The notes under the pieces: generated by a model
Database searches by the model: none
Seen by the model: only the letters and a program-made list of their open reading frames with translations
What the model was told of the DNA's origin: nothing
Shown: piece after piece, positions 22,309-45,209 of the stretch
Numbering within the stretch: position 1 is the first letter of the stretch
Layout: each line of letters begins with the position of its first letter
Position numbers and translations under genes: made by a program
Assembly: GCA_037355855.1 (NCBI GenBank)
Contig: CM074759.1
Coordinates: 5,022,001-5,086,000, forward strand
From: Pseudo-nitzschia pungens
Lineage: Eukaryota; Bacillariophyta; Bacillariophyceae; Bacillariales; Bacillariaceae
DNA: 64,000 nt
Direction: 5' to 3'

Positions 22309-22319
22309 GTTTATTTTAC

Positions 22320-22425
22320 GGAGTTAAAACAGTATATAGTACATTACGATTTGAATTTTACTTTAGTTCGGTACAAAATTTGGCGACAAAAAAAGATTTA
22401 CATGCGATCGGACATTTACGACACC
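22320..22425 (+). repeat. Left terminal inverted repeat of the giant MULE
   Basis: Starts GGAGTTAAAACAGTATATAG. Positions 22328-22382 are identical to the reverse complement of 43440-43494; beyond that identity falls until GCGATCGGAC. The TSD precedes it directly. Confidence 0.95.
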
Positions 22426-22616
22426 ACTCCTCACTGTAATTACTTTCCAGCAATCACTTCTTAAGTGTTTCAACCGCTGTTTCATATCCATTATCCAGCA
22501 CGACCATTTATGTCTTTTCTCTTACTTTTTTGTCCACCTTCATTTTTTTCTTTGTTTTATGTATGTTGTCCTTTCACTGCATACCGGTAAAACAATTTTG
22601 ACATCGTTATTACACC

Positions 22617-23499
22617 ATGATGATGTCCTCCACCAATCCACCGTCACGCGGTAAGTAGAACTCCCCTTGCCTTATTTTTTCCCCTCTGTCAGTTCACCTC
22701 GTTTCTCATTCATGTTCCGCTAGTGTCGATATTTGTCCACTTGGAACGCTTGCGACGCGCTAAGACACAGTTTTTTTACATTTTACCGTATCGGGTGAAC
22801 TCGCCGTCCTCTGTTATTCAAATTTTGGGGACTACTGGGAATGCCTACACTGTTGTCATCTCCTCCTGCTCCATTATCTGTTCATGTCCCGACGTTCAAT
22901 GTGGAGCCTCTCCTGTTTACACTTGTAAACATGTCTTATTTTTGCTCACCGAGATTGGGTTTTCTCTCTCCCCCGGCGAATTCTCTCTCTCCATATTGAC
23001 AATCTTGAATCGCCTTTCAAAACACCATTCTCCGCGAATACTTGATACCGAAACCTCTACCATGTGCTTTTCCTTGCTTCGAAAGCCGTGTGTTTATTGT
23101 CAAAAACCGACAATGAACTGCGCTATGTTCCTTTGTAACCAGTGTTACTCCTCATTCCACCATCACCACATCGCCCTCCTGGATTCTGTCAATTGTCCTT
23201 TCTGTGGTAGCCTTTGGGCACCTATTTTTTCTGGTTGGGTCCACAATTATCGCAATCTATCCTCCGTTCTACTCTTTAATGGACACCGCCGACGTCCCCA
23301 ACGTTGTGCTGATTCTAGGAGAAACTTGCCTTCGATTAAGTCTTCTAAAGCGAGTACTGTAATTAAAGTTCAACACCAATTATATCCCGGAGAAGACCCC
23401 GTTAGACATCCCCAGCATACGTCCACAACAAAATGCCACATTGTACCACCATCGCCATTGAGGACTCTAAATGACGGTTTTCCTTTTTCGGACAAATAA
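22617..23499 (+). CDS. SWIM plus RING zinc-finger protein (spliced, 269 aa)
   Basis: join(22617..22650, 22724..23499). The downstream frame has no ATG near its start, but exon 1 (ATG ATG ATG at 22617, then SSTNPPSR) ends in CGCG|GTAAGTAG and splices in phase to TAG|TGTCG. In the spliced protein, residues 64-81 are a SWIM finger (C-S-C, 12 residues, C-K-H) followed by a hydrophobic helix (VLFLLTEIGFSL). Residues ~134-172 are a RING-like finger (CVYC ... CAMFLCNQC ... CPFC). SWIM fingers normally sit C-terminal to the MULE transposase core; here one is on a separate protein together with a RING, the arrangement of ZSWIM2-type ubiquitin ligases. The C-terminus is basic (RRRPQR). Inferred role: DNA/transposase partner or E3 ligase used by the element. 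Convergent with the 790-aa gene. Confidence 0.75.
22651..22723 (+). other. Intron in the SWIM-RING gene (73 bp)
   Basis: 5' site GTAAGTAG, 3' site GTTCCGCTAG, with a pyrimidine-rich stretch TTATTTTTTCCCCTCTGTC inside. The alternative acceptor CTGTCAG at 22692 gives the wrong phase. Splicing joins an ATG exon to an otherwise start-less frame. Confidence 0.65.
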
Positions 23500-23667
23500 A
23501 TTATTTCTACTATCGTGTTCATTTTCAATAATAAGACTATTTCGTTGTACCATCTTTATTGCTTTCCCTTATTTGGCCTTGTTATGGTTTTGGCGTATGG
23601 CGTCTTTCCTTTATGTTTACGCATCAATTTCTTTTTTTAAACAACGTCTTTGGCCTGTTTCGATTCT

Positions 23668-26040
23668 TCAGATATCTCCTTTAAATTTGATCGTCATTTC
23701 CCAATTTTTCGGAGAAGGGTGTGGAATATTGACTTTTGTGACAATGTTCAGAGTTTTTTTTTCGTTCGAATCAACGGTAACTTCACAATCCTGGGGATGG
23801 GAGTCGTTCACCGCGTCGTTCTGTTTTTCTAGGTCGGTAGAGTCGTCTCTCTTTCCATCTTCGCAACCGTTATTTGAGGTCCGCTTGTCCGTTCCTTGGT
23901 TGCCTTTCTTTTCTCCGTTGGGGTTGTTGATCGGGTTGCCTTGGTTTTCTCCGTTGTCTCCGTTCATCCGGTTGCCTCCGTTTTCTCCGTTGTTCGGGGG
24001 ATCCTTTTTGGCACCCGGGTTTTCATCTTCCGGTTCATCGTTCATCCGGTTGCCTCCGTTTTCTCCGTTGTTCGGGGGATCCTTTTTGGCACCCGGGTTT
24101 TCATCTTCCGGTTCATCGTTCATCCGGTTGCCTCCGTTTTCTCCATTGTTCGGGGGATCCTTTTTGGCACCCGGGTTTTCATCTTCCGGTTCATCATTGA
24201 TCGGGTTGTCTCCGTTTTCTCCGTTATTCGGGGGATCCTTTTTGGCAGCCGGGTTTTCATCTTCCGGTTCATCATTGATCGGGTTGCCTCCGTTCTCTCC
24301 GTTATTCGGGGGATCCTTTTTGGCAGCCGGGTTTTCATCTTCCGGTTCATCGTTGATCGGGTTGCCTCCGTTTTCTCCGTTATTCGGGGGATCCTTTTTG
24401 GCACCCGGGTTTTCATCTTCCGGTTCATCGTTGATCGGGTTGCCTCCGTTTTCTCCGTTGTTCGGGGGATCGTTTTTGGCAGCCGGGTTTTCATCTTCCG
24501 GTTCATCGATGATCGGGTTGCCTCCGTTTTCTCCGTTGTTCGGGGGATCGTTTTTGGCACCCGGGTTTTCATCTTCCGGTTCATCATTGATCGGGTTGCC
24601 TCCGTTTTCTCCGTTATTCGGGGGATCGTTTTTGGCACCCGGGTTTTCATCTTCCGGTTCATCATTGATCGGGTTGCCTCCGTTTTCTCCGTTATTCGGG
24701 GGATCGTTTTTGGCACCCGGGTTTTCATCTTCCGGTTCATCATTGATCGGGTTGCCTCCGTTTTCTCCGTTGTTCGGGGGATCGTTTTTGGCAGCCGGGT
24801 TTTCATCTTCCGGTTCATCATTGATCGGGTTGCCTCCGTTTTCTCCGTTATTCGGGGGATCGTTTTTGGCAGCCGGGTTTTCATCTTCCGGTTCATCGTT
24901 GATCGGGTTGCCTCCGTTTTCTCCGTTGTTTGAGGACGGCTTTGTGGTAGCCGCTTTGAACTCTTCTATCTTTTGATTTAAAGCAGCTTGTCTTTCGTAG
25001 TAATGATTGAATACATCATCCAAATGCTGTTTTTGTTGATCGAATTCAGACTTTCTTTGAAGATATATCCATTGTTCAGAATGGTTATCGAAATGCTCTT
25101 TTTGTCGATTCCATTCCAACTTTCTCTGATCCAATGTAAATTGTTCCGTCATCAATCGCATAAATTGCTTTTGCCTTTTTCTATTTTGCGACTGAAAGAA
25201 CTCGGTATGACGTTTATTCAGATCTACCTTTACCCGTAGTTTCTCCTTTTTTGGTCCTCTTTTCTTGTTTAGTTTGAAAACACAGTCAACCGCTGTTCCT
25301 TTTGTCCGAGCGACGCAGCAATTCTTACACATGACTCCGGAACATCCACAATCCTGTCTATCGCACAGTTCACATTTAATTTTTTTTTCTTTGCAACGTT
25401 CACATGAATTAGCAACACGGTCCTTGACTTTCGATTGACCGCCATCGTGGTCACGACCAAGAACAAACAAACACGGTTTCTCTGACATGCCGCATTGGAT
25501 TCTTTGACAACAATTCCAGCACATTGTTCCCTCGCAGGTAGTGCACAACTCGTCTTGGGGGCATAGGCGACAAAATATCGTTTTATCCTGACAATTGGTA
25601 CAATAGGAGCAGACCCTTTTTTTAAGAACGGAATAATTCTTGGGTGACGCTATCCTTTTTTCCGTTGACTCATATTGGGAGATAATTCTATTTTTTTCGG
25701 CGGAAGAAAGTGTGTAGTGACCTTCTTCGTTTTCGGATCCTTCCCTAGATGATCCTTCCTTAGGAGTGACTTCGTCGTCGTCGTCGTCGTCGTCGTCGTC
25801 CTTGTAATCCTCATCGTCGTCGTCGTCGTCGTCGTCCTTGTAATCCTCATCGCTTTCAACGTCCCCCTCGTAAGCGTCATATTTTGGTTTTTTCCTTCTT
25901 GATAGACGTCTTATCTGAGTGTCTGTCAATTTTCGCTTGGTCCCACCTTCTCCCACCCTTCTTTTTCGGGTTGGCTGGTGATCATCATTCTGGGTTGCAG
26001 AAGGAACTTCAAGGTTACGTACGTACGACTCGAATGACAT
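23668..26040 (-). CDS. Cys-rich, coiled-coil, repeat-bearing transposon protein (790 aa)
   Basis: ATG at 26040 (MSFESYVRNLEV). N-terminus (~1-110): a basic patch KRRVGEGGTKRK (possible nuclear localisation) and two long Asp tracts each introduced by DYKDDDD. Residues ~150-285 hold ~25 Cys in CxxC pairs (CSYCTNCQDKTIFCRLC; CERCKEKKIKCELCDRQDCG), probably several zinc-binding modules of the CXXC/PHD kind. Residues ~290-370 are Gln/Lys/Glu-rich and predicted coiled coil. Then come 12 full copies and one partial copy of a 26-residue unit (NNGENGGNPINDEPEDENP plus a variable [AG]AK[NK]DPP). The unique C-terminus contains TLNIVTKVNIPHPSPK. Family not recognised. Its place inside the MULE suggests a DNA- or chromatin-binding accessory factor. 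Confidence 0.8.
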   Translation of the reverse strand: MSFESYVRNLEVPSATQNDDHQPTRKRRVGEGGTKRKLTDTQIRRLSRRKKPKYDAYEGDVESDEDYKDDDDDDDDEDYKDDDDDDDDDEVTPKEGSSREGSENEEGHYTLSSAEKNRIISQYESTEKRIASPKNYSVLKKRVCSYCTNCQDKTIFCRLCPQDELCTTCEGTMCWNCCQRIQCGMSEKPCLFVLGRDHDGGQSKVKDRVANSCERCKEKKIKCELCDRQDCGCSGVMCKNCCVARTKGTAVDCVFKLNKKRGPKKEKLRVKVDLNKRHTEFFQSQNRKRQKQFMRLMTEQFTLDQRKLEWNRQKEHFDNHSEQWIYLQRKSEFDQQKQHLDDVFNHYYERQAALNQKIEEFKAATTKPSSNNGENGGNPINDEPEDENPAAKNDPPNNGENGGNPINDEPEDENPAAKNDPPNNGENGGNPINDEPEDENPGAKNDPPNNGENGGNPINDEPEDENPGAKNDPPNNGENGGNPINDEPEDENPGAKNDPPNNGENGGNPIIDEPEDENPAAKNDPPNNGENGGNPINDEPEDENPGAKKDPPNNGENGGNPINDEPEDENPAAKKDPPNNGENGGNPINDEPEDENPAAKKDPPNNGENGDNPINDEPEDENPGAKKDPPNNGENGGNRMNDEPEDENPGAKKDPPNNGENGGNRMNDEPEDENPGAKKDPPNNGENGGNRMNGDNGENQGNPINNPNGEKKGNQGTDKRTSNNGCEDGKRDDSTDLEKQNDAVNDSHPQDCEVTVDSNEKKTLNIVTKVNIPHPSPKNWEMTIKFKGDI
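23955..24945. repeat. 78-bp coding minisatellite in the 790-aa gene
   Basis: Twelve full units and one partial, differing by a few bases: GGATCC versus GGATCG, and GGCACCC versus GGCAGCC, which gives [AG]AK[KN]D. Because 78 is a multiple of three and no unit holds a stop in several frames, long open frames also appear on the plus strand and in a second minus frame; these are by-products. Confidence 0.9.
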
Positions 26041-26378
26041 GTTTGTATTTTGAATTCACGATGGTTACTTTTTACTTTTTCTTTCCATTAAAAAGTTTTG
26101 GCACTTTATATTTGTGTTCCTGCGTTTGTGTTATCCTTTCGTTGTTTTTGTTTGCTTCTTCGTGTTTGATGTCGTTGCATATTGTTCTCTAACACTTTTT
26201 CCGTCCGCCAAATTTTTTTTTTTTTTTTTTTTTGGTTTTATTAAAACCTGAAACTTTTTGAGAGTTAATTTAAACTGGTTGTCAGAGTGCGCGATAATCA
26301 GTGCGCGATAATGATATACAAGTGTAGGACTGCGCCTAACGCGACCTCGTATCATAACGTTTAGTTTCGAATATTTAC
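26041..26378. other. Intergenic region inside the giant MULE
   Basis: Promoter side of the 790-aa gene and of the broken gene to its right. It contains a T-homopolymer at 26213-26234 and a short direct repeat of GTGCGCGATAAT at 26286-26314. No gene. Confidence 0.4.
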
Positions 26379-26382
26379 ATGT

Positions 26383-26828
26383 TTGTATTGGTCGGTCGGT
26401 GATGCACCCAACTTAATTGACACGTGGATCCCAAAAAATCTCCGAGGTTACCCTGATCCGCAAATTGTCCCTGACATCTTGATTCATTCATTGTCTGGCA
26501 TGGGGGTAAGACCTTATGAGGGGACAAGCTGCATCCACAAATTGGTAGAGGAGTGGATCAATTTTTCCGGTGTTGTATTGGGGAACATTGAGTTTATGGA
26601 TGAAAATGAAGTTTCCTGCTGACAGTTTCGACCATTTGTGTATTGACAACTCTAACGACGGGTCTCGCCATTTAAATTACAATTGCGATGAAGAAAATGG
26701 TGTCCCAATTGTTCGATATTTCACAGACTTTTCTGACTTCGAAATTGATACTATCAGACTGACACGGGAAAACGACACATGTGTGCCCGAAAATAAATTA
26801 TGGTACATATATGCGGAGGATGATACGT
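26383..26828 (+). pseudogene. Left part of a gene split by the nested element
   Basis: Coding-like sequence in two frames: about 26383-26622 (DAPNLIDTWIPKNLRGYPDP, then VEEWINFSGVVLGNIEFMDE) and about 26600-26828 (FDHLCIDNSNDGSRHLNYN, then FEIDTIRLTRENDTC and LWYIYAEDDT). The frame switch at ~26612 is either a +1 shift or an unrecognised intron. The nested element begins straight after. The continuation at 32795 is in a third frame, so the gene was already decayed or has introns I cannot place. No family recognised. Confidence 0.5.
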
Positions 26829-27236
26829 CCGAAAACTGTTTCGCGACCCATCGCGACCAATCGCGACCCGATCGCGACCCAATCGCGACTTGTCTAAAAA
26901 AAATTCAACCCCAATTTTTTATTTCACAACCTCTTTTTTATTATTCTCAACTTTTTTCCATTATTCTCAACCACATTTCTCCCTTTTCTCAACTCCCCCA
27001 ACGGGTCGACGGAAATGTTCTGTTCTAGACCCTGACATTCAGTCCCTCTTCACACTTTCATTCCATTTTACACATTTGACACACTTGACTCAACACAACA
27101 AATAATTTTTAATCCAATTTACTTCAATCACACCAAAGTGTTACGTCGTGCACCTTTGTGAACTTTTTTTTTCAGTGGTGTCACATCACATACCGGTACC
27201 CCAGCTAAGAATCGCATCACAAAAACACACACCACC

Positions 27237-27821
27237 ATGCCGAAAGCTTCCTCCGACCCAAGGCACTTTGCCAATGAGCCCAGAATACCCAAGACATTCC
27301 ATTGTCGCAACTGCATTGCCTCTGGAAGAAGAAGAAAATCAAAATCCTTCAAGGGATACAAACAAGAATCGAGCCACTTTCACACCTACCGATATGTATC
27401 TCAAGGCCTCTCCAGGCATCTCTATTCCAACAGTGATTGCCGAACTTATTATGTTAAGAACGATCTTATGGATTTTATTTCTTCTGCGAAAGCCGAAGTC
27501 ACCCTCCCTTTGGTCCGACACACACCATCACAGTATGGACTGACAATGACACTAGGCAGCAAGCAGCAACACGTCGCTAATACAGGGGGGACAGCAAGCA
27601 GCAGCAACGCGTCGATAATACAGGGGGGGGACAGCAAGCAGCAGCAACGCGTCGATAATACAGGGGGGACAGGAAGCAGCAAGCAGCAACGCGTCGATAA
27701 TACAGGGGGGACAGCAAGCAGCATTGAACGCGTCGATAATACAGGGGGGACAGCAAGCAGCATTGAACGCGTCGAAAATACAGGGGGGGACAGGAAGCAG
27801 CAGCAACGATTGCGTCGATAA
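27237..27821 (+). CDS. Truncated zinc-finger ORF running into a minisatellite (194 aa)
   Basis: ATG at 27237 in CACCACCATGCCG. The first ~100 residues look like genuine protein: PRIPKTFHCRNC, then YVSQGLSRHLYSNSDCRTYY, a C-x2-C...H-x6-C arrangement like degenerate fingers at the N-termini of some transposases. From residue ~105 on the frame reads the ACAGCAAGCAGCAGCAACGC repeat array (SKQQQRVDNTGGT), so the original C-terminus is gone. Likely the amputated 5' end of the element's former transposase or another captured gene. Confidence 0.4.
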   Translation: MPKASSDPRHFANEPRIPKTFHCRNCIASGRRRKSKSFKGYKQESSHFHTYRYVSQGLSRHLYSNSDCRTYYVKNDLMDFISSAKAEVTLPLVRHTPSQYGLTMTLGSKQQHVANTGGTASSSNASIIQGGDSKQQQRVDNTGGTGSSKQQRVDNTGGTASSIERVDNTGGTASSIERVENTGGDRKQQQRLRR

Positions 27822-28195
27822 TACAGGGGGGGACAGCAAGCAGCAAGCAGCAACGATTGCGTCGATAATACAGGGGGGACAGCAAGCAGCAAGCAGCAAC
27901 GCGTCGAAAATACAGGGGGGACAGCAAGCAGAAACGCGTCGATAATACAGGGGGGGGGGACAGCAAGCAGCAGCAACGCGTCGATAATACAGGGGGGACA
28001 GCAAGCAGCAACGCGTCGATAATACAGGGGGGGACAGCAAGCAGCAAGCAGCAAGCAGCAGCAACGCGTCGATAATACAGGGGGGGGACTGCAAGCAGCA
28101 AGCAGCAGCAACGCGTCGACAACACAGGGGGGGGGACAGCAAGCAGCAGCAACGCGTCGACAACACAGGGGGGGGACAGCAAGCAGCAAGCAGAT
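27550..28195. repeat. G-rich minisatellite, block 1
   Basis: About 15 units of GCGTCGATAATACAGG + G(5-9) + ACAGCAAGCAGC(AGC)n, with length varying from ~36 to ~60 bases through the AGCAAGC repeat. Every unit has a run of at least six G. Confidence 0.9.
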
Positions 28196-28274
28196 AGAGG
28201 TGCTGAGTTAACGAGCCTTTCAATAAATTCGATTTTCAAGTACAAATTGTACAGGGATTTATGTAGGAAAAAAA

Positions 28275-28600
28275 AGACAGGGGGGACAGCAAGCAGCAGC
28301 AACGTCGATAATACAAGGGGGACAGCAAGCAGCAACGCGTCGACAATACAGGGGGGACAGCAAGCAGCAACGAACGCGTTGATAATACAAGGGGGGGGAC
28401 AGCAAGCAGCAACGAACGCGTCGAAAATACAGGGGGGGGGACAGCAAGCAGCAACCAACGCGTCGATAATACAGGGGGGGACAGCAAACAGCAACAACAA
28501 CGTTGATAATACAGGGGGGGGACAGCAAGCAGCAGCAACGCATCGATAATACATGGGGGGACAGCAAGCAGCAACGCATCGATAATACAGGGGGGATAAT
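28275..28600. repeat. G-rich minisatellite, block 2
   Basis: Eight more units of the same repeat (GTCGATAATACAGGGGGG-ACAGCAAGCAGCAAC), separated from block 1 by ~80 bases of unique sequence (28196-28274). Confidence 0.9.
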
Positions 28601-28614
28601 ACACGAGAATATTG

Positions 28615-29045
28615 TTAAAGAACTATTGCCGTCTTTTGATCGTATCGGTCGTTCCCCTCTTCAACAATCGTATCGGTCGTTCGTCGTTCCCCTCGTCGTC
28701 GTCGTCCTTGAAATCGTCATTGCTCTTCGTTTCGATCGTCGTCGTCGTCGTCCTTGAAATCGTCGTTGCTCTTCGTTTCGATCGTGTTTGTCGTCCTTGA
28801 AGTCGTCGTTGCTCTTCGCTTCGATCGTCTTCGTCGTTGCTCTTTGCTACGATCTGTGTGTGGTTGTACAAAATAAACAACGGGCGGTTAGTCGTCATCG
28901 TCGTCCCGGTCGTCGTCGTCGTCGTCCCGGTTGTCGTCGTCAGCTCGCTCGTCATCGTCGTCCCCCTCTTCTACGATCGTACCTTCGTCGTACCTTTTAG
29001 TGTCATCATCCCTCCCCGATCGTCTTCGTCGTCCTCTGCAGGTTC
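28615..29045. repeat. GTCGTC / GTTGCTCTTCG minisatellite, left copy
   Basis: Units of CGTCCTTGAAATCGTCGTTG followed by CTCTTCGTTTCGAT at about 28707, 28752, 28795 and 28810, ending in a TGTGTG-rich stretch and AAATAAACAA. Then come GTCGTCGTC blocks. The same unit appears in inverse orientation at 31975-32290. Confidence 0.7.
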
Positions 29046-29351
29046 GTTCGCGCGTCGTACTCGTAGATATCTGGGTAAGCCAGATGACTCAAGGTCTGCA
29101 GCCCACCCTACCTTGATAACAAAAGATAACAGGAAGGATTTCAAGAGTGATCAGTTCTTTACTTTCTTTGCCATTAGTCTCTCCAAGATGGTACCAGGCG
29201 CCTTGCTCTCACTTTAAACTGGTCCGGCCAGAAAATTCCAACACCGAAACGAAAATGAAAATTATGACACATCCTCCACGAGGGAGATGTGGGGCGGAAA
29301 ATCGAACAACAAAATTCACTGCGATGATGCACATAATGATGTACGCGATGA

Positions 29352-29555
29352 TGCACATAATGTACGTAGGTAACAGTACTGTTTGTACAGGCTGACTGGA
29401 AAAAATGACAGCAATGTACGTAGATTACAGTACTGTTTGTACAGGCTGACTGGAAAAAATGACAGCAATGTACGTAGATTACAGTACTGTTTGTACAGGC
29501 TGACTGGAAAAAATGACAGCAATGTACGTAGATTACAGTACTAAGTCTACAGTCT
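29352..29555. repeat. 54-bp tandem repeat, ~3.5 units
   Basis: Nearly identical units AATGTACGTAGATTACAGTA-CTGTTTGTACAGGCTGACTG-GAAAAAATGACAGC starting near 29359, 29413, 29467 and 29520. Confidence 0.9.
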
Positions 29556-29859
29556 TAGTAAAAGAAAAAATGACATGTCTGCATACATACCTAGTAGTAC
29601 GTATGTATGTATGCAGGGGATGTGTAGGTTTCCAGTACTGTGTATACTGTACGTAGGGTACTGGTAGAAATCTTTTGGTAGTAGCATTATAAGATAGAGA
29701 GAACACCATTAAAGCAGTAGTAGACAGTAATGGTGGTATCACTGGATGTGACTGATGTGGTGTTGTTGGTTCGAGTGCCATGGTGGAAATATATTTTGCC
29801 ACATCACGATGCGATAACAATATTTTTGCTGCGAAGCACATGTCAGAATAAGTGAGCTA

Positions 29860-31085
29860 TTCAGTTATTCAATGGTGACATCCATACTATTGGTGATTTT
29901 TGAATACTTCTTTTTGCATACTCTTGCCCATGCATAGGATGAGGAATATTCACACTGGAATCACACAACTATTGGCCAGATTCATTCAGATATGTGATTT
30001 GGTAATTTTTTCTAGTAAATTCTGCAGTAGTGGACCAAATATCAATTATTCAGTGGTGACACCCAAATTATAGGTGATTTTTGCATATTTCTTTTTGCAT
30101 ACTCTTGCCCATGCACAGGATGAGGAATATTCACACTGGAATCACAGAAATATTGGTCAGATTCATTCAGATATGTGATTTTACAGTATTTTCTAGTAAA
30201 TTCTGCAGTAGTGGACCAAATATTAATTATTCAGTGGTGACACCCAAATTATAGGTGATTTTAGAATACTTCTTTTTGCATACTCTTGCCCATGCATAGG
30301 ATGAGAAATATTCACACCGGAATCACACAAATATTGGATAGATTCATTCAGATATTTGATTTTACAGTATTTTCTACTAAATTTTCCAGTAGTGGACCAA
30401 ATATTAATTATTCAGTGGTGACACCCAAACTATTGGTGATTTTTGAATACTTCTTTTTGAATTCTCTTGCTCATGCATAGGATGAGGAATATTCACACCG
30501 GAATCACACAAATATTGGACAGATTCATTCAGATATTTGATTTGGTACTTTTTTCTAGTGAATTCCGCAGTAGTGGAACAAATATTAATTATTCAGTGGT
30601 GACACCCATACCATTGGTGATTTTTGAATACTTCTTTTTGCATACTCTTGCCCATGCACAGGATGAGGAATATTCACACTGGAATCACACAAATATTGGC
30701 CACATTCATTCAGATATGTGATTTGGTACTTTTTTCTAGTGAATTTTCCAGTAGTGGACCAAATATTAATTATTCAGTGGTGACACCCAAATTATAGGTG
30801 ATTTTTGAATACTTCTTTTTGCATACTCTTGACCATGCATAGGATGAGGAATATTCACACTGGAATCACACAAAGATTGGCCAGATTCATTCAGATATGT
30901 GATTTTACAGTATTTTCTAGTGAATTTTCCAGTAGTGGACCAAATATTAATTATTCAGTGGTGACACCCAAATTATAGGTGATTTTTGAATACTTCTTTT
31001 TGCATACTCTTGCCCATGCATAGGATGAGAAATATTCACATTGGAATCACACAAAGATTGGCCAGATTCATTCAGTTATTTGATT
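29860..31085. repeat. ~180-bp satellite, about seven units
   Basis: Each unit contains GATGAGGAATATTCACACTG, CATTCAGATATGTGATTT, CAGTAGTGGACCAAATATTA and TTGCATACTCTTGCCCATGC. Starts are near 29939, 30119, 30299, 30480, 30660, 30841 and 31024. The 180-bp spacing is conserved. Non-coding. Confidence 0.92.
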
Positions 31086-31439
31086 TGATGGTATATTCAC
31101 TGAGGTAGTAGTACTATTCTTGCTGCTTGTAGTAGTAGTACCACAGTTATACGCTGCTGCTACATACTACTGCATTGCGTAGGTAGTAGTACATAAGAGG
31201 CAGTCAAAAATTATGGCGCAGCGGGGCAGGCTCTCTGTGGTTTAGGTGGCGCGCGATATCACCATCAGCTTTCTACTGGTTTCTACTACTATTACTTCAG
31301 TACGGTACATACTACTAGTAGTAACTCTACTGCTATTATGTAGAAGAAATCAATTCTCAGCAAATAAATGCATGACAGAAAATGCATGTGTCGTAAATCT
31401 TACTTCACATAATTTTGGGTCGGAACGGAACAAGAAAGA

Positions 31440-31740
31440 CGGCAACTGAAATATAATGAGATGGAAATGGTAAGTGAACCACATCAAGGTTGGAGGAGGT
31501 ATTAATAATGGATTTTGATTCGTCTAACTGTGCATCATTGACTTGCCTGCTTGCTCCTGATAGGGAGGCGACCGCAACTGCTGATGAAATAGGAGGATGC
31601 AACGGCAAATGAAATATAATGCAACGGTGAGTGAAACACATCAAGATCTGGGGTATTGATAATGGATTTCAATTGTTCTAATTCTGCATTGAGTTGCCTG
31701 CTTGCTACTGATAGGGAAGAATCAACTTTAATTCGACGGG
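31440..31740. repeat. ~165-bp direct duplication
   Basis: GAAATATAATG...GTGA(A)C(A)CACATCAAG...GCATTGA(C/G)TTGCCTGCTTGCT...CTGATAGGGA occurs at 31449-31565 and 31612-31720 with moderate divergence. Confidence 0.6.
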
Positions 31741-33632: not shown

Positions 33633-33654
33633 ATGTTTCTAGACCACTAAGTAA

Positions 33655-34035: not shown

Positions 34036-34131
34036 AGTCGCATGCAATTTTCTATTGTTGAATGATCTCATTATTTTAACTAATTGAGTATAAAATCAAC
34101 CAGTACTCTTATAACTCCATCACGGATAATT

Positions 34132-34638: not shown

Positions 34639-34809
34639 GTCATGAATGACGCAAGTCAACAAATAGATAGATTGTTATTCATTACCGTAAATTTTTTTGA
34701 AGTAACCGTAACCCCATTTCCTAAATAATTACAACTATTTTAAATTAGTAAATTTATTTCTTAGTTAAATGACGTTTACTTATGCATATATTTGTTGGTT
34801 AAAGGACGT

Positions 34810-37800
34810 TTACTTGTAATCGTACATTAGATCCATTTTTACTTTCTTTTTTCTCTGTGACCTTCGTAACCTCAGATCCAAAGACGATTCGTTAGATAAG
34901 TTTGGTACGGGTTTGATTCCCACTTCTGGTTGAGCACGGGATTTTTCAACCCGTTGTTTCTTCCTTTCGACGATTCCCACTTCTGGTTGAGCACGGGATT
35001 TTTCAACCCGTTGTTTCTTCCTTTCGACCATAATTTTTTTTTCCAATCCCTTCTTTCTTGTTCTTATCCTAGAATCTCCAGAATCTGTAAGTGGATTGTG
35101 AAATAACCAATCGTCCTCATCTTGGTCAGATTCGGATTCGATGCATTCTGTTTGCCTTCTCTTTCCAATTAGTTTTTCGTCTACTAAATTCGTCAAAGAT
35201 ACATCATCTGATTCGGAACAATCTGATTGCGTTGATTTTTCGGGTGTTTGTATTATCGGGTCATCGATTAAAACATCACCCTTAGCTTTGGATGCGTCCG
35301 GTTCTACTTCTGGTGTTTGGTTCGATTCTTCCCCGTCGCGGACCAACTGGACCGGCTCATTTGATTCTCCTTCAGAGTGACAATCATCCGGTGTTTGGTT
35401 CGATTCTTCCCCGTCGCATACCGATTGGACCGGTGGATTTGATTCTACTATGGATGAGTCCGCCTTTACTTCCGAACAATCTGATTGCGTGGATTTTTCG
35501 GGTGTTTGTATTATCGGGTCTTCGATTAAAACATCACCCTTAGCTTTGGATGCGTCCGGTTCTACTTCTGGTGTTTGCTTCGATTCTTCCCCGTCGCGGA
35601 CCAACTGGACCGGCTCATTTGATTCTCCTTCAGAGTGACAATCATCCGGTGTTTGGTTCGATTCTTCCCCGTCGCACACCGATTGGACCGGTGGATTTGA
35701 TTCTACTATGGATGAGTCCGCCTTTACTTCCGAACAATCTGATTGCGTGGATTTTTCGGGTGTTTGTATTATCGGGTCTTCGATTAAAACATCACCCTTA
35801 GCTTTGGATGCGTCCGGTTCTACTTCTGGTGTTTGCTTCGATTGGACCGGCGGATTTGATTCTCCTTCAGAGTGACAAGCTTCCGGATTTGTTTCTACTA
35901 TGGACGAGTCCGCCTTTACTTCCGGTGTTTGATTCCATTCTTCCCCGTCGCATACCGATTGGACCGGTGGATTTAATGCTCCTTCCGGGTGATAATTGTT
36001 AGCCTTGTTTTTCTTTTTAGCTGTTTTGTGTCCAATGTCATGACAGACCTTGTATTGAAACAATTCACGTTTTAACAGTGTGGCAAATTCCATAAAATTG
36101 TCACGGAAACTTCTTATTGATTTTTCATCCAAAGTATTCCAAGTATCCTCGCTCCCGAGGATCCAAAATGAAATGTCGCTTGCCGTTGTCCGTTTAGAAT
36201 CCGCTGATGGTTGTCCGTGAAAATCTATCGCCTCTATCAATTCGCTGCAATTATCTACAATAAAGTGGGCGTTGTGGCACAAATATATTCCGCAGCTGCA
36301 ACCGTCATGCTGACTGTCCAAACACTCAAATGCCTCTTTTAACGCGGGGTGGATCTTTCGACCTTGATCGTCATCCTCACGGTATTTTATGCCCGGATAA
36401 TGTTCGGAGAAATAAGACCGCAACATTTTCAGTTCGTAGTCATTGGGGGTATCATACGTTTCCTTTTGGGAGTCCAGAACTATCAAAGACAGTGTCTTAT
36501 CTTTCTCCACGTAAGCTAGGAATAGTCTCCAATGGGAATTGTCGCATTGTGGTATTACAAATATTCGTTTTTTGCTGATGTCTTCGAACGCAAAATCGAT
36601 CTTTAGTGCCTTCTTTCCGTCAAAATTTTGTTCATGTTTCATTTTAGAGTGTATTTCCAACTGTGTGAAAAATTGCGGTAAGAATACGTGGACTTCTTTC
36701 GGCGCCCCAATGGAAATCAGAAGACACCAAAAACCGACCACCACGTCATTCAACCAGTTGTCTCCCTCAAGCGTTTTATAGTCGTCATCGGTGAATTCAA
36801 GTGTTGCCCAGTATCGGTTCTCGTTAAATCTGGTCCGATTATACATAACCGAAAAATCGATCTCTTCCTCTTGGCACCAATCCATCTGTTCCTCTTGGTA
36901 CAAGCTTTTGAGAAGATACCATTTCTCCGCAAGGTTTTCTCTAATAAGCTTTTGACAAACAGGTAGTCCCATAATTGATGCAGAGAACAATCGAGTGCTA
37001 CTTTCCTTAGCTACCTCAGCCTTTGTTTTGTCATCAATCAATTTACATCTTCCGTGATTCACGCCGAAACATATGGCAGCCTCTTCAGAAATAGTCAAAG
37101 CTTCGACAGATCCAATTTCGAGAAGCGCTTTATTGAAAGCAATTATATCTTCTTTACTTCCTTCAAAGTACAAACGACAAAGAGTTTTGTCTTCTTCCGA
37201 AGTCTGTAAATGCGACGAATCGGAGAAATTACCTGATTCGAACCGATCCATATCGAAAATCAGAGATGTGCGTGTAGGTTCGATCGTAGAATACGCAATG
37301 AACACTTGTCTGCAACTCGACTTTTGGTTTTTCAGACTGATAGTAATGAAGACTCGGTTGTTGTCTGGATCAACCACTTGTAACTTTGGTAGATCGCCGT
37401 GACTAACCAAAATCTTTGTTTGATTACCGTAGAAAGATCCAGCCGGATTTTCTCTGAGATCGAGATCACAAAAGAAATCGGTATGATTAATTGTGACTAT
37501 CGCATTTCCCTCGGGATTTCTTTGTATGATTTTCATCGGTAAAGGTGTTGCATAAAATGAAGGTGTCAGCAACTGAATAACCGGTTTTTGTATCAATTCC
37601 TGTTTCGTAATCTCTTCTCTAGAACTGTGATCTCCGATTTGTTTAAAGAAATCGTTCGAGGCATCGATATAAGCCTGTTTAAAATTGATATTTTTAGCCC
37701 GTTGTATATATGGCCGTAAATCGATCGGAGTCTTCCCAACATACCCCAACTTTTTCTTCGGCGATTTCCAATCGACACTGCATTCACCCAGAAAAATTCG

Positions 37801-40800
37801 TTTTTCTGGGTTTAGCGGGTGAGCAATTTCCACTGTATTTTGATCACAGGGATACAAACGTTCGATAGAGCCATCTCTCTGTATTTGTATAGTTAGACAA
37901 CCAGTCACGTTATTTTTGTGTGTTATCTTGGCCTGGACTGGTGTCTCTTGGTCCCCATCCTTATGGTAGTACATGAATCTGTTTGAACTTTTTGTAAACA
38001 CTACAATGTTTGTGTTCGATGATTCTTCTTTGACATTACCCGTTGCCTTTTTCGGGTTGGCGAACAAACTACGCCTAATGGGATTCTTGAAGCAGGGCTC
38101 GCAATAAACCGAGAATTCGTCTCCATCCTTAGAATCGTTTCGAATTGGTAATGGTTCAAACAACACGTTGCAATGTAGGCATTTCCTATTCGGTGTTTCG
38201 GAGACAGTTTCAACACAATATCCACACAATCCACGGTCATTAGAACAAGAAAAATCACCAATTCCCCCGTGATAGAACCGGCGACAAAACTTGCACTTAG
38301 TCTTTGTATCATCAGGCCAAATTGTCATGTTTCCAAAGAAACAGAATGATTTTGCACAACACACTGTACTGTCATCTCCCAGACCACTTCTGTGGGCTAG
38401 GCTGTCCAGGTTGGAAGTCGGACAATTATCAGTCACGTATACTGATTTACGTTTTAAGCTTGTATCCATAATGCCACTGATGATGTCCTTCACAGAAATA
38501 TTTGTATTGCTTGATACTTTTTTTCTCGCCCGCTGGCTGTGCAAAATCGCTCTAGCTCTGATCAGATGATATTGTGGATGATTTACCAAATTTCGGGCCA
38601 TTTCCAGATAACTGCTTTTGGACTGATTGCTTTTGTATCTCAAGTCATGGACAAATAAAACAGCAAGTAGTTCCTTCGTAGTAAATTCAGACATCAAACC
38701 GGACTGGGACCGTAGTCTGACAAGGAGACTTCTTTCGTCGGTTTTTTTAACCAATTTTTTGTTTTCAGTATCCTTTTTTGTTATTGGTAGTTTTCTTTTT
38801 CGGCGTTGAGCAAGTTTGTTTATAGCCGGATTTTTTCTTTTTAAACTTGAACGTAAATCACCCTGATTTCCCAATATAGACACTTCCTCGAAAATATCTC
38901 TTTTTAATGTCCATGGGCTGATGTACCTTCGAAGCAGGATCGAAAGAGGGAGACTCATGCAATAAATATTCCGTGATATCTTTGTTTTTCCCTTGTCTGC
39001 GGCTGGAATCGATCTTTCAAAAATTTTGTCCATTACACATATTCCAGAATCGATGTCGTCAAATTTATCTGAAAGTGACAAAATGCCATCATCAGATAAC
39101 TGCCACTCAATTTTATTTTGTTTTTTCTTTAAAAATTTAAGAAGGAAGGAATCACGGAAATCACTGACTGATTTCTTACAAGAGTCTGGGCAATTCAAGT
39201 GATGGTATGTATGTATAAGCCCGACTCGTGGTAATAATAAGATCACCGACCACCATCTGTGACAATTAGATTCTGGCGATTTACAGAAGATTAAGAAGTA
39301 AATCTGGTTCGGACAGAATGTTTTACCGTCATGAATGAACGTGTAGGGTATCGAATAATCCACTTGGGGATTATTGCTGTCCGCCGACTGGTGAACAAAA
39401 AACTTGGGTCGGGATTGGTCCTTGGGAAACGCCTGTCGATTGAACAGAACGACAAAAGCGTTCATGAAACAGGGTAGAATTCTACCATTTTTGCACTCAA
39501 TTATATCACGAAACCATTCCACTTTGAAATTGAAATCCAACTCGTCACCAACATCCACCCTTTGTAAAAGCTTTTTCTCTAACTCGGATGATGTGAAGTG
39601 TTCTGCACACGATGACAACTTAGATACTACCTCTCGAAGTAATACACTAACATCCATATTTGAAACTCCCGAGAGAAATGTATTCGCGGAGGATAATCCA
39701 CCGGTGACATTGGATTCAACCTGCTGGTGAGAATCTTCGTCGTCACCTACCACCATCTTGGCATGTCGTTCTGGAGTAATTTCCCCCTCGTTTGCAGCTA
39801 TATTCAGCGCTGTAGTCAAAGCTGGACTACCCTGGATATCAGTTTCGGGGTCCAAAGCCGAAACTTGTGTTAACGGTACATCGTTTCCCTGGCTACATTC
39901 GGAGTTGGAACTGACACTGTCGTTGTTTCCTGGATCATTCACACACTCCTCATTTGTCTCAGTCTTCGCTAAATATGCCAGCCTTTCACAGACGCGTTTC
40001 TTCCGACCCCTATCGACACTTGGAATTTCACCGAGATAAGAACCCAAGGAGCGTGCCTCGTTAGGTGTGTCCGTCAACGGGCATCCAACCCCATAATTCT
40101 CGCTTGATCTTCCAAGGGTATAGACATAGGACGACAAATCCTGACCGATCAGTTTTTGCGCGAATCGGTCTACTATTTCTCCCAAAGAAAAAGAGAGGAT
40201 TTTGTGTTCCTGCAAGTTGAAGTTCCGCCCTTCATCTCCGAAATCAATTGTTCCATTGAGAGTATCAATTTCGTCTTCGTCCAATCCGTGCCCGAAGAAT
40301 TTCTTCCGACACGGAGAATATACATTTTTATCATCGCCATCACACAACTCTATCGGTGGCATATCTACGGGAAGGTTTTCTTCGTCCGGGGTGTACGGTT
40401 GCTGCTTCGCCAAATCGCTGATTCGGTAGATGATATAATCGCCGGGCACGATTTCAGATAATGGACAAAAATTCTCCGGTTCTGCACTATCATCACGTCC
40501 TGATGTGGTTCTCTTTTTACCATCAGTAACGAGGCTCATCTGATCTATTCCTTCCATCCCGAGATCACCATTCTCTTCCCGTTGATACTTCCTGTGAGTT
40601 GTGTCAATTTTTTTTTGCCTGGAAATAGTGAAAGGTTTGTTGATCTTTGCCAGTGGGGACAAAACACCGCCCTCTCTCTTACTAATTCGACGGTACCCCG
40701 GTCTAAATGGAAAGGCAGTTAATTCTCCGTTCGATGTGATACGCTTGCCCTTGGATTCCTTAGACTTGGAATACCTCGGAGGAGGACTAAGTTGGAGTGG

Positions 40801-43071
40801 CGCATGTAAATTCCTTGTGTCAACTGTCGTTGGTTCATATATTTCCAAGCAATTCTTTGCAGAAGAAAAGGGATCACCAAAACAATATTCGTTGTTTGAC
40901 CTCCGGATAAGGGTACGCGAGCAAGATGAAAGACTGGAAGAATGATAAACCAGGGACTCGATTATTCCCATTACAGGAATGGTAATAGGAAGGGGCCAAC
41001 AGGGATGCCCCCTCGCCACAGACAGTCCAATCCGAAAACACGGACAAATAGACTGTCTCATTTGTGTGAATTCCACGTGTAACTGACAAGTAGTTGAAAG
41101 ACATAAAGTCTCACGTGCACTCAATATGTCGTCTTCACATTGGGACAAAAAGGCGTTTCTCAGGTGATAACTTGTACGATGATTCCATTTCATCACATAA
41201 AGATGGGTGCATTCATCGCTATCGCGGCGAATTGTGATTCTGATACCATCCTTTCCATTGTGATTCGTAACGTAGCTTGGGGATCCATGTAGAGTGAAAT
41301 CGTTGTTACTCGCTTCCCGGCTGTTAAACAGATTGATTTGTTGACCAATAGACGACAAGATGGAAGAACCTTGGTCATTGTTTAATTTCTTCAAAAACTT
41401 GGAAACAGCCTCATTGTACATATTAACAAAGGCGACGTTCGTGGAGTGTGGGAGTTTATTACGTACGTCGTTGGCAAGTAGTTTTCCTGCGATAGTCTCT
41501 GCCAAATTGGTTCTCTTGAATCCCATTCTCAGCGTACGCTCTTCACGCCGCATTGGTGCTCTCTTGACATATCGAAAATTTGATGCATAGGCCGCTGCCT
41601 GACAAACACCAGTGTCTACCAACACTTGAGTAACATTATCGCCTCGATCAAACAGATCGTGCATATATTGCAAAAAATAGAATTGTTCCGCAAAAGTCTT
41701 CATGTTCAAAAAGAAAAGGTCCTCTTTGTAATTCTCCGAGTTACCGATAACCGTCCACAATTTTGGGTCATACCGGATTATGTACAAGATCAAACCGGCA
41801 CATTCCTTCCTACTTTGACCCTGGTTAAGATCTAGTATGTCGGAAAAAAGCGAGATCAAGTGACCGAAAAATGAGTCACTAGAAGTAGAGTCGGAAGCAC
41901 CAATTATATGACGGGTAAGTGTCTGATGACTCTGTAACACCCAAGCGTTATGTTTGTTTGTATTTTCGCTTTTTCCGTGGCGATAGTTCGTGAAAAGTTT
42001 CTTGTGTTTAACGCGTATGGATCGAATTAGATGTTGCAAGCATAGAGTTACCCGGAACGATACTTGGAACTGTTTGAAGAATGCATCGAACGTCGATATA
42101 AGTGGTCCCTGGTCGGTGACGAAAGCGTGTTGGTCAAGCTCGAGTCCATGCTTTATACAACACTGAACAACCCAAGCTAGCTGTGATTTATTTTCCCGGG
42201 GGATTATTGCCCATGCAAGAGGTAAGGTATCACCGAATATGGTTTTTGTCACCAACACAAAACAAACCCCATCATAGTTTTTCTCCTTGTAGTGGAAGCA
42301 ATCGCCAACGAAAACTGGTGTCGTCGTGGTTCCAAAATATCGTCGGTTTGCCATCGGTGTAGAAATGAAGGAACGATAAAAACGACAATTGTCGTCGGTC
42401 TGTAACATAACTGTTAGGTCTTTATTGGAGTCAGTTAATGCTTGCATCCAATTGACCATAGTTGAAAATTGTTGACGGGGTAAATGGTTCTGTACATGTT
42501 TGTAAACGGACAATTTTGCCCGCCTCATCAGAACTCCGGGTCTTGGAGATGCAGTCATAAACTCCGACTCTGCGAGCCATTTGAACATCATGGGGTTTTT
42601 CAAATACTTGCTGTCGGGATATAAAGACATATTGTCTTGAATGTATTTCTGGAAAGGTGGGAAATGAACAAGAATATTCTGGCGATCGAAAACGGGTAGG
42701 GGTTTGCGAGCTTGTTCATTCACCTTGTCCAGGTCGTCAATATTTTCAAAAGGTAGAAGGTACCATTTTGTTGTACCGGCATTTTCGCCGCTCATTAAGG
42801 GATCGACTTCTTGATGTGCGTGTTTACAAGAGACTACGATGTAAATACCAGTACATTTGCACATGAAACGTCTTGTATACCTGTCTTTGCGATAAGTTGT
42901 TTTTCCGGAGGTGACGATATGGAGCCCCCACCGGTTGAAACAGTAAGAGGCTAAATCCTCTGCTAAATGAGAGGTTGTAGAAGAGAAAGGAGGAGGTGCC
43001 CGACGGTAAGACTCGAGTGACATTGGATGCCACCTTCTAATAGACACCGTGCCATCGTTGATAGTCGTCAT
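34810..43071 (-). CDS. MULE transposase fused to Ulp1/SENP-type SUMO protease (2753 aa)
   Basis: Uninterrupted frame, ATG at 43071, 330 bases inside the right TIR. Residues ~44-86: Cys/His cluster with CKCTGIYIVVSCKH, a CxC-x8-CxH that itself fits a SWIM-like finger. Residues ~250-530: MULE DDE core with Asp257 (FVGDCFHY), Asp320 (FVTDQGP), the diagnostic CLQH (344-347) and a candidate Glu525 (TNLAETIAG). Residues ~1560-1670: Cys-rich block with CKFCRRFYH, CGYC, CLHC, CEPC, PHD/RING-like. Residues ~2110-2280: Ulp1 C48 peptidase with WLNDVVVGFW, His2180 (NSHWRL), Asp2200 (VLDSQ), Gln2254 and Cys2260 (CSCGIYLC), all catalytic positions kept. Residues ~2330-2640: ~2.5 copies of an 86-aa acidic repeat. 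Basic C-terminus (RRSQRKKKVK). MULE-Ulp1 associations are known in plants (Kaonashi-type elements). Confidence 0.9.
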   Translation of the reverse strand: MTTINDGTVSIRRWHPMSLESYRRAPPPFSSTTSHLAEDLASYCFNRWGLHIVTSGKTTYRKDRYTRRFMCKCTGIYIVVSCKHAHQEVDPLMSGENAGTTKWYLLPFENIDDLDKVNEQARKPLPVFDRQNILVHFPPFQKYIQDNMSLYPDSKYLKNPMMFKWLAESEFMTASPRPGVLMRRAKLSVYKHVQNHLPRQQFSTMVNWMQALTDSNKDLTVMLQTDDNCRFYRSFISTPMANRRYFGTTTTPVFVGDCFHYKEKNYDGVCFVLVTKTIFGDTLPLAWAIIPRENKSQLAWVVQCCIKHGLELDQHAFVTDQGPLISTFDAFFKQFQVSFRVTLCLQHLIRSIRVKHKKLFTNYRHGKSENTNKHNAWVLQSHQTLTRHIIGASDSTSSDSFFGHLISLFSDILDLNQGQSRKECAGLILYIIRYDPKLWTVIGNSENYKEDLFFLNMKTFAEQFYFLQYMHDLFDRGDNVTQVLVDTGVCQAAAYASNFRYVKRAPMRREERTLRMGFKRTNLAETIAGKLLANDVRNKLPHSTNVAFVNMYNEAVSKFLKKLNNDQGSSILSSIGQQINLFNSREASNNDFTLHGSPSYVTNHNGKDGIRITIRRDSDECTHLYVMKWNHRTSYHLRNAFLSQCEDDILSARETLCLSTTCQLHVEFTQMRQSICPCFRIGLSVARGHPCWPLPITIPVMGIIESLVYHSSSLSSCSRTLIRRSNNEYCFGDPFSSAKNCLEIYEPTTVDTRNLHAPLQLSPPPRYSKSKESKGKRITSNGELTAFPFRPGYRRISKREGGVLSPLAKINKPFTISRQKKIDTTHRKYQREENGDLGMEGIDQMSLVTDGKKRTTSGRDDSAEPENFCPLSEIVPGDYIIYRISDLAKQQPYTPDEENLPVDMPPIELCDGDDKNVYSPCRKKFFGHGLDEDEIDTLNGTIDFGDEGRNFNLQEHKILSFSLGEIVDRFAQKLIGQDLSSYVYTLGRSSENYGVGCPLTDTPNEARSLGSYLGEIPSVDRGRKKRVCERLAYLAKTETNEECVNDPGNNDSVSSNSECSQGNDVPLTQVSALDPETDIQGSPALTTALNIAANEGEITPERHAKMVVGDDEDSHQQVESNVTGGLSSANTFLSGVSNMDVSVLLREVVSKLSSCAEHFTSSELEKKLLQRVDVGDELDFNFKVEWFRDIIECKNGRILPCFMNAFVVLFNRQAFPKDQSRPKFFVHQSADSNNPQVDYSIPYTFIHDGKTFCPNQIYFLIFCKSPESNCHRWWSVILLLPRVGLIHTYHHLNCPDSCKKSVSDFRDSFLLKFLKKKQNKIEWQLSDDGILSLSDKFDDIDSGICVMDKIFERSIPAADKGKTKISRNIYCMSLPLSILLRRYISPWTLKRDIFEEVSILGNQGDLRSSLKRKNPAINKLAQRRKRKLPITKKDTENKKLVKKTDERSLLVRLRSQSGLMSEFTTKELLAVLFVHDLRYKSNQSKSSYLEMARNLVNHPQYHLIRARAILHSQRARKKVSSNTNISVKDIISGIMDTSLKRKSVYVTDNCPTSNLDSLAHRSGLGDDSTVCCAKSFCFFGNMTIWPDDTKTKCKFCRRFYHGGIGDFSCSNDRGLCGYCVETVSETPNRKCLHCNVLFEPLPIRNDSKDGDEFSVYCEPCFKNPIRRSLFANPKKATGNVKEESSNTNIVVFTKSSNRFMYYHKDGDQETPVQAKITHKNNVTGCLTIQIQRDGSIERLYPCDQNTVEIAHPLNPEKRIFLGECSVDWKSPKKKLGYVGKTPIDLRPYIQRAKNINFKQAYIDASNDFFKQIGDHSSREEITKQELIQKPVIQLLTPSFYATPLPMKIIQRNPEGNAIVTINHTDFFCDLDLRENPAGSFYGNQTKILVSHGDLPKLQVVDPDNNRVFITISLKNQKSSCRQVFIAYSTIEPTRTSLIFDMDRFESGNFSDSSHLQTSEEDKTLCRLYFEGSKEDIIAFNKALLEIGSVEALTISEEAAICFGVNHGRCKLIDDKTKAEVAKESSTRLFSASIMGLPVCQKLIRENLAEKWYLLKSLYQEEQMDWCQEEEIDFSVMYNRTRFNENRYWATLEFTDDDYKTLEGDNWLNDVVVGFWCLLISIGAPKEVHVFLPQFFTQLEIHSKMKHEQNFDGKKALKIDFAFEDISKKRIFVIPQCDNSHWRLFLAYVEKDKTLSLIVLDSQKETYDTPNDYELKMLRSYFSEHYPGIKYREDDDQGRKIHPALKEAFECLDSQHDGCSCGIYLCHNAHFIVDNCSELIEAIDFHGQPSADSKRTTASDISFWILGSEDTWNTLDEKSIRSFRDNFMEFATLLKRELFQYKVCHDIGHKTAKKKNKANNYHPEGALNPPVQSVCDGEEWNQTPEVKADSSIVETNPEACHSEGESNPPVQSKQTPEVEPDASKAKGDVLIEDPIIQTPEKSTQSDCSEVKADSSIVESNPPVQSVCDGEESNQTPDDCHSEGESNEPVQLVRDGEESKQTPEVEPDASKAKGDVLIEDPIIQTPEKSTQSDCSEVKADSSIVESNPPVQSVCDGEESNQTPDDCHSEGESNEPVQLVRDGEESNQTPEVEPDASKAKGDVLIDDPIIQTPEKSTQSDCSESDDVSLTNLVDEKLIGKRRQTECIESESDQDEDDWLFHNPLTDSGDSRIRTRKKGLEKKIMVERKKQRVEKSRAQPEVGIVERKKQRVEKSRAQPEVGIKPVPNLSNESSLDLRLRRSQRKKKVKMDLMYDYK
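35225..35900. repeat. 258-bp coding tandem repeat in the transposase-Ulp1 gene
   Basis: Two full units and a partial one: TTCGGGTGTTTGTATTATCG recurs at 35238, 35496 and 35754. Each unit encodes an 86-aa acidic block including GDVLI[ED]DPIIQTPEKSTQ. In phase with the gene. A smaller duplication of VERKKQRVEKSRAQPEVGI lies at about 34910-35030. Confidence 0.9.
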
Positions 43072-43396
43072 TACGGAATAAATGTGTTGTTGGAAAAAAA
43101 AAATTTTAAGTATAAAAAAGTTTAATTACGGGAAACCATTGAAATGTATAAAAATGCCGACATAAAGGGATAAAAAATACCGACGTAACGGAAGAAACTA
43201 AAAGTTAACGTGTACAAAAATTTATTATGATTCGGCGATACCTCAAAGTTTTTAGTTAGGAATCACACACGACATGGGTGGATATATGCCCAACTACCGA
43301 TGCAAAGTATAAAATGAATATAAGAGAACGGTGTTGTCTGATATCAAGTCAAAAGGATCACGGTTGAGACAGAAAAGTGTCGATATGAAGGAACAT
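43072..43396. promoter_or_regulatory. Probable promoter region of the transposase gene
   Basis: 325 bases between the ATG (minus strand) and the right TIR, AT-rich, with TATAAAAA-like stretches (TATAAAAAAG at 43111-43120, TATAAAAATG at 43147-43156). Position alone supports a promoter; no motif is diagnostic. Confidence 0.35.
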
Positions 43397-43502
43397 AGTA
43401 TCGTAAAAGTCCGATCGCTAGTTCAATATATTTAACCGTCAAATTTTGTACCGAACTAAAGTAAAATTCAAATCGTAATGTACTATATACTGTTATATCT
43501 CC
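43397..43502 (-). repeat. Right terminal inverted repeat of the giant MULE
   Basis: Reads GGAGATATAACAGTATATAG inward on the minus strand; two mismatches to the left end within the first eight bases, then 55 identical bases. The TSD follows directly at 43503-43513. Confidence 0.95.
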
Positions 43503-43513
43503 GTTTATTTTAC

Positions 43514-45181: not shown

Positions 45182-45209
45182 GATAAAATATTCCAATTTG
45201 ACCAACGCA

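Follow-up and report, generated by a model that had tools for sequence, protein, structure and literature searches.

A probable autonomous five-gene giant Mutator-like transposon in a diatom genome, enlarged by a nested TA-flanked insertion

Target-site duplications in the Mutator-like element (MULE) superfamily measure 8–11 bp, and the classification of Dupeyron et al. (2019) includes a diatom group, group 37 or 'MULE-Diatoms', with one open reading frame (ORF), a SWIM module and terminal inverted repeats (TIRs) of 123–124 bp (PMC6446971). Table 1 of that work lists the SWIM module for many MULE transposase groups, gives one or two ORFs per group where a number is stated, and names no C48 domain (PMC6446971). 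The VANDAL elements of Arabidopsis carry three genes, VANA, VANB and VANC; VANC motifs lie in the noncoding tandem repeats of VANDAL21, VANC proteins carry tandem peptide motifs, and VANC evolves faster than the VANDAL transposase (PMC5735166). VANDAL TIRs are 46–174 bp long and the target-site duplication is 9 bp (Table 1 of PMC6446971), and some VANDAL-related VANC genes carry Ulp1 (PMC13317346). ULP1-bearing MULEs of plants include Kaonashi (KIU) of Arabidopsis and families of melon, rice and grapevine (PMC2528002, PMC13317346, PMC6117577). Grapevine MULEs with TIRs and those lacking them can both carry ULP, which lies downstream of the transposase ORF and may point either way; that study infers that plant MULEs either gained ULP independently several times or often lost it (PMC2528002). 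Giant algal DNA transposons have been described in the red alga Chondrus crispus, whose En/Spm (CACTA) elements span 16–20 kb with 4–5 ORFs (Kojima 2013, as cited in PMC6431247).

The locus described here lies in a 64,000-nucleotide stretch of diatom DNA (the window) and is very probably an autonomous giant five-gene MULE of approximately 15.2 kb, which has reached 21.2 kb through a later, unrelated, TA-duplicating insertion into its third gene. It resembles the MULE superfamily, and group 37 in particular, in its long TIRs, its 10–11-bp duplications (within the 8–11-bp range) and its diatom host, but differs from the tabulated MULE groups in carrying five genes on 15 kb, a SWIM-like motif in a separate gene and a fusion of the transposase to a C48 domain. 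It resembles VANDAL in its multi-gene organization, its motif-bearing noncoding array and ZnR, an accessory protein that changes fast and contains peptide repeats in tandem, whereas its motif is a different one, its array lies between ORF3 and ORF4 and is only putatively read, and its host is a diatom; no relationship to VANC was detected at the sequence level, and none of the accessory ORFs scanned matched VANC/DUF1985 in Pfam. A C48/ULP domain within the element is common to this locus and the ULP1-bearing plant MULEs. In the plant elements, as far as the accounts cited above describe them, the captured sequence occupies a downstream or antisense gene, whereas here the C48 domain is C-terminal in a single 2,753-residue DDE frame accompanied by four further genes; moreover, KI-MULEs lack TIRs, in contrast to the clear 105-bp TIRs of this element. 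The Chondrus giants are likewise enlarged algal cut-and-paste DNA transposons with several ORFs, but belong to another superfamily, the present element having 10–11-bp duplications and Mutator-type ends and core. En/Spm (CACTA) elements make a short duplication of 2–3 bp; neither this nor CACTA-type ends were found here, where the duplications are 10–11 bp and the element ends start with GGAG, GGAC or GGAT.

The element occupies positions 22320–43502 of the window (21,183 bp, duplications excluded), flanked by an 11-bp target-site duplication, GTTTATTTTAC, read in the sequence at 22309–22319 on the left and 43503–43513 on the right. The left TIR (22320–22424, + strand) and the right TIR (43398–43502, − strand) are each 105 bp long; 89 of the 105 positions are identical between them, and the longest unbroken stretch of identity, at element positions 9–63, is exactly 55 bp. 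The best of 20,000 random 105-bp pairs drawn from the window reached 48 matches. With up to three mismatches allowed, a 54-bp TIR core was found at two places in the window, whereas 100 shuffles gave no occurrence. The initial annotation had reported identical 11-bp sequences flanking both ends and TIRs of about 105 bp with 55 identical bases, both of which hold; its ends were exact, except that its end position, 43513, took in the right duplication, the element itself stopping at 43502. To the right of the element, the window contains a 2,035-residue ORF with DUF285 repeats in 14 stretches (45126–51233) and a 1,513-residue retrotransposon pol-like ORF with reverse transcriptase, RNase H and integrase-type domains (57480–62021). 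Bacterial-type promoters and terminators were sought at the right end of the element and none was found, a result that is uninformative for a eukaryote.

The host assembly comprises 66.9 Mb in 28 contigs, and the algal host proposed from the sequence can be specified as a diatom: 11 of 11 matches to the silicon-transporter family PF03842 lie over the family cut-off. A 1,696-residue open frame at C3:7803825–7808126 has several silicon-transporter matches in tandem. The matching tool scores best candidates only, and match counts per gene rest on those. With the 121-bp left end as query, 40 genome matches were scored, the two ends of one element being counted separately. The window subfamily comprises six elements with these ends, namely the window copy and those at C11:1184581–1200159, C7:3734722–3743626, C3:5525652–5540901, C3:1845344–1861011 and C6:3224296–3239405, whose 10-bp duplications are, in that order, GAACGTGAAT, GTTTTGCGAC, CGCCCTCACC, ACCGTAGTAC and TAACCTTATG. 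The C7 copy is internally deleted to 8.9 kb and lacks the sequence corresponding to window positions 33326–39634, and the right end of the C6 copy differs by a small gap. Four relatives with both ends form two further subfamilies; their duplications, from flanks read by eye, are TTTTCGTTCT (C10), TAAGAGAAAC (C12), GAATTCGAATA (C11b) and CATTGTGAATC (C2b). All ten two-ended elements have perfect duplications of 10 or 11 bp, in ten different sequences. Two elements of about 1 kb have related ends, one with a perfect 10-bp duplication, TTTCGTGAAC, and the other with a duplication matching at 9 of 10 positions. The closest pair, C11 and C3b, differs by four synonymous and two nonsynonymous changes over 2,794 codons of the large gene. 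The initial annotation had viewed the locus as a mobile MULE-type element, probably forming a family of its own, and this view is supported; the check that it proposed, a search for further copies that differ in their duplications but share the gene set, was positive, yielding the six copies and four relatives, and near-identical copies are present in the host genome.

Several copies are damaged: those on C7 and C11b are internally deleted, and C2b is broken and reaches 36.5 kb owing to large extra frames, which look retroelement-like by eye. The right end of C2b, together with 14 letters of its outer flank (C2:5195361), recurs at C8:2614003, which may reflect a duplication that included the element's edge. 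A more distant group in the host (C1, C7 and C8) has about 1,000 N-terminal residues in common with the large protein, at 35–38% identity; in the stretches examined, these relatives showed one shared terminal repeat end (GGAGCCTGG...) and no partner end. A further diverged transposase relative lies at C1:118001–128000.

The large protein is encoded by gene 5 (34810–43071, − strand) as a transposase–SUMO-protease fusion of 2,753 residues in one uninterrupted frame, which is open in five of the six subfamily copies, at 2,753–2,795 residues. Its DDE transposase core, residues 257–525 (41497–42303, − strand), contains D257, D320, C344xxH347 and E525, all invariant in the five proteins aligned and all present in the relative P0004. 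The D-D-CxxH-E arrangement is the signature of the MULE DDE core, and with these residues the MULE transposase core recognized in the initial annotation stands, with a sub-threshold match to the Pfam MULE profile. For the window protein this match scores 15.7 bits against a cut-off of 27.6 and spans 90 of the 99 profile positions; all six transposases scanned matched the profile, each below the cut-off (E = 0.0015–0.08). Because AlphaFold modelled the core with low reliability (pLDDT 39), the assignment of an RNase-H fold rests on the motifs.

A profile search with the core among 5.8 billion proteins returned two relatives at E ≤ 0.001, P0004 and P0005. The latter, from Pseudo-nitzschia multiseries by its source name, is a partial relative that keeps D257 only, the stretch with the other signature residues being absent from that predicted protein. 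No classical MULE transposase was among the relatives at this threshold; this absence is weak evidence because the search depends on 5-letter words in common with the query and limits its scoring to proteins of 0.55–1.75 times the query length. The sub-threshold Pfam scores of all six transposases, together with a search that recovered two relatives, one of them from P. multiseries, and no classical MULE, would suit a core belonging to a separate superfamily, Mutator-like in duplications and ends yet outside the MULEs. We consider this unlikely, since the length of the duplications, the length of the ends and the D-D-CxxH-E signature all fit MULE, the profile match covers nearly the whole MULE model, and the silence of the search is weakened by its word and length limits.

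The C48/Ulp1 protease domain occupies residues 2105–2275 (36247–36759, − strand) and exceeds the Pfam cut-off (E = 7.6e-6), with further matches to SENP5 (E = 1.7e-4) and yeast Ulp1 (E = 9.3e-4). A search with residues 1–2400 found a sole relative, the 2,152-residue metagenome protein P0001, at 45% over 40% of the query; its domain order is also MULE followed by C48, with the C48 match 0.1 bit under the cut-off. Among viral contigs, 40 pattern matches were obtained, none of them a relative. Residues 1184–1380, which by eye had resembled a second, dead Ulp1-like domain, were rejected as such, as profile comparison with the C48 region gave a probability of 0.3% (E = 0.19). Distant MULE-like ORFs at C1:3180001– and C7:3380001– (1,739 and 1,955 residues) have no match to the C48 part, and beside each lies a separate small ORF beginning with or containing IPICEGGHW, which we take to resemble the C48 His-Trp motif. 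Because these small ORFs adjoin distant ORFs that show no C48 match, fused and split transposase/C48 forms may coexist.

Four further genes precede the fusion gene. Gene 1 (+ strand) has two exons, at 22620–22650 (ATG ... G/GTAAGT) and 22724–23499, and encodes a SWIM/RING-like protein of 268 residues in all; its intron is conserved, with both splice sites (GTAAGT at the donor) and the start kept in C10 and C2b, and the C2b gene contains a stop. The protein has a CxCx13CxH arrangement followed by Cys/His pairs, which we take to be a SWIM pattern and a RING-like region, respectively; a Pfam scan gave no match. Of the 17 genome matches listed for gene 1, some fall in the ten elements and others in remnants, decayed or partial, on C1, C12 and C3; the remaining two are relatives at 35%, and one of these, on C8, has a 38% transposase about 6 kb away. 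A 35% gene-1 relative is located at C2:2245623. Gene 2 (23668–26040, − strand) encodes ZnR, a 790-residue protein with two Cys-rich modules and 26-residue tandem repeats, the number of which varies, as does the protein length, from 720 to 894 residues, across the six subfamily copies. Its 15 listed genome matches fall in the ten elements (C6 twice), in a decayed C12 remnant (two matches) and, weakly, on C6 and C4. Gene 3 (ORF3, + strand) is cut in the window by the nested element into a 5′ part (26600–26825) and a 3′ part beyond it (32798–33632), and is open at 352 residues in four other copies; in C12 and C2b it contains a stop. Gene 4 (ORF4; 34132–34638, + strand) encodes 168 residues. Pfam scans of ORF3 and ORF4 found no known domain, and the AlphaFold model of ORF3 was too poor to use (pLDDT 35). 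Among the best-scored candidates, ORF3 had 11 genome matches, all inside the ten elements, and ORF4 had 9, all inside elements; ORF3 also has two metagenome relatives at 36–37%.

Matches to the five genes are collinear and in the same orientation in C10, C12, C11b and C2b, in a comparison that omitted ZnR matches starting past residue 380 with identity below 70% (the repeat region). Identity to these four relatives is 65–73% for gene 1, 45–56% for the ZnR N terminus, 65–72% for ORF3 and 62–68% for ORF4; the large protein is 57% identical end to end in C10 and C12, and 40–79% (C11b) and 37–78% (C2b) identical piecewise. Between subfamilies, dN/dS is 0.15–0.27 for the transposase, 0.21 for ORF3 (one pair), 0.21–0.43 for ORF4 and 0.22–0.44 for ZnR, whose synonymous sites are saturated at this distance (dS 1.4–3.3). 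ZnR also has the highest between-subfamily dN, 0.61–0.74 versus 0.11–0.40 for the others. Within subfamilies, dN/dS scatters from 0 to 0.88 on few changes (0.14–0.63 for the transposase, up to 0.88 for ORF3), with a value of 1.48, again on few changes, for ZnR of C10–C12; for gene 1 it rests on 0–3 changes. As judged from these codon comparisons, the four genes tested, transposase, ZnR, ORF3 and ORF4, show purifying selection between subfamilies.

This conservation bears on the origin of the gene set. Host gene capture is frequent in MULEs (PMC6431247, PMC6446971), and plant MULEs and CACTA elements have gained ULP-like sequence repeatedly (PMC2528002), in line with a Pack-MULE-like composite, that is, an ordinary small MULE that took up host genes without a role in transposition. 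Such a composite is very unlikely here: three subfamilies keep the five genes, their order and their orientation although end-to-end divergence of the large protein reaches 43%, the four genes tested are under purifying selection between subfamilies, ORF3 and ORF4 have no genome match outside the elements among the best-scored candidates, and ORF3 has its distant metagenome relatives.

The proposed autonomous five-gene MULE is interrupted in the window by a nested element of 5,972 bp (26826–32797), which is not part of it. The nested element has its own inverted ends (CGTCCGAAAAC...) and is flanked by a duplicated TA at 26824–26825 and 32798–32799. Aligned to the window, all five other subfamily copies run from 22320 to 26825 and resume at 32798; in the four copies found by a letter-by-letter check of the empty site, the sequence reads GATGATAAGGCG, the fifth copy, C6, not having been recovered by exact search. 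At least 41 genome matches, this one included, were obtained for the left end of the nested element. Since the five other copies lack 26826–32797, full-length copies are 15.1–15.7 kb in size, and the window copy corresponds to a 15.2-kb element with a 5,972-bp passenger. ORFs within 26826–32797 are outside the MULE gene set. The initial annotation's giant, multi-gene element is retained in the form of five genes on about 15 kb, but its size of 21.2 kb is not. That the whole 21.2 kb forms one transposon family, with the other copies as deletion derivatives, is ruled out for practical purposes: this unit does own the ends and the target duplication, but the block is missing from every other copy at the same base pair, has TA-flanked inverted ends, an empty site and a genome-wide left end of its own, and cuts an ORF that is open in four other copies. 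The nested element, with inverted ends CGTCCGAAAACTGTTTCGCGACC, is rich in tandem arrays (181 bp × 6.8, 42 bp and 54 bp).

A 41-bp tandem array between ORF3 and ORF4 (33711–34036) contains eight copies of the motif GTCCGATC in the window element and 10–11 copies in the four other subfamily members that retain it. Throughout the five retaining copies, GTCCGATC is confined to the array and to one occurrence per end; the window as a whole has 11 occurrences, 10 of them inside the element. The inner part of the ends is otherwise diverged, and the motif sits in its longest conserved island. C2b likewise has a 41-bp array period, whereas the arrays of C10, C12 and C11b are degenerate, with a period of 42 bp. 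The C10 array has three copies of GTCCGATC and three of GTCTGATC, with one end carrying each form and one further GTCCGATC elsewhere in the element. The C2b array has no GTCCGATC and contains ACCGATC units instead, one end carrying GTCCGATC and the other GTCCGGTC. Outside the window subfamily, the link between array and ends is weak. As a measure of chance, 302 of 5,000 shuffled repeat units (6%) and 115 of 2,009 real 41-bp windows contained an 8-mer also present in both ends; when only the inner part of the ends was considered, the counts were 2 of 5,000 and 7 of 2,009, respectively. Since the inner part was singled out only once the result was known, the sharing of GTCCGATC between array and ends is no more than suggestive.

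A mechanism can be proposed in which the accessory proteins have putative roles. Within the large protein, the N-terminal ~1,000 residues would bind the ends, cut the element out and re-insert it. The C48 domain may strip SUMO or a SUMO-like tag off host or transposon proteins, which would favour transposition or escape from silencing, and the SWIM/RING-like protein of gene 1 would supply the SWIM module in trans. A DNA-binding accessory protein, most likely ZnR with its Cys-rich modules and repeats, would recognize GTCCGATC in the ends and in the array. This cut-and-paste MULE lineage carries a multi-gene toolkit, of which a VANDAL-like anti-silencing system may be part. In its fullest form, the proposal is a clade of five-gene giant MULEs in the diatom lineage, with a SUMO-pathway toolkit of its own (the fused protease and a RING-like partner acting in trans) and an independently evolved, sequence-specific function, VANDAL-like, in anti-silencing or end pairing, for which ZnR would read GTCCGATC in the two ends and the 41-bp array; we offer this tentatively, and consider it less likely than not as a whole.

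The C48 domain by itself is not new in MULEs, because ULP is frequent in MULEs of plants, both those that have TIRs and those that lack them, and was probably gained several times. Among the literature matches listed, as judged by titles and the opening lines of abstracts, none combined five genes on 15 kb with a C48–DDE fusion in a single frame; the element may nevertheless be catalogued in Repbase. The transposition efficacy of DNA elements is said to fall above about 6 kb of cargo (PMC6431247), yet five genes on 15 kb are maintained in this lineage, in nearly identical copies. C48 domains are now seen in MULEs of plants and of a diatom, setting old inheritance against repeated gain as the explanation for their distribution. 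If the motif array works as proposed, the element would be an independent algal counterpart to the multi-gene anti-silencing of Arabidopsis VANDAL elements.
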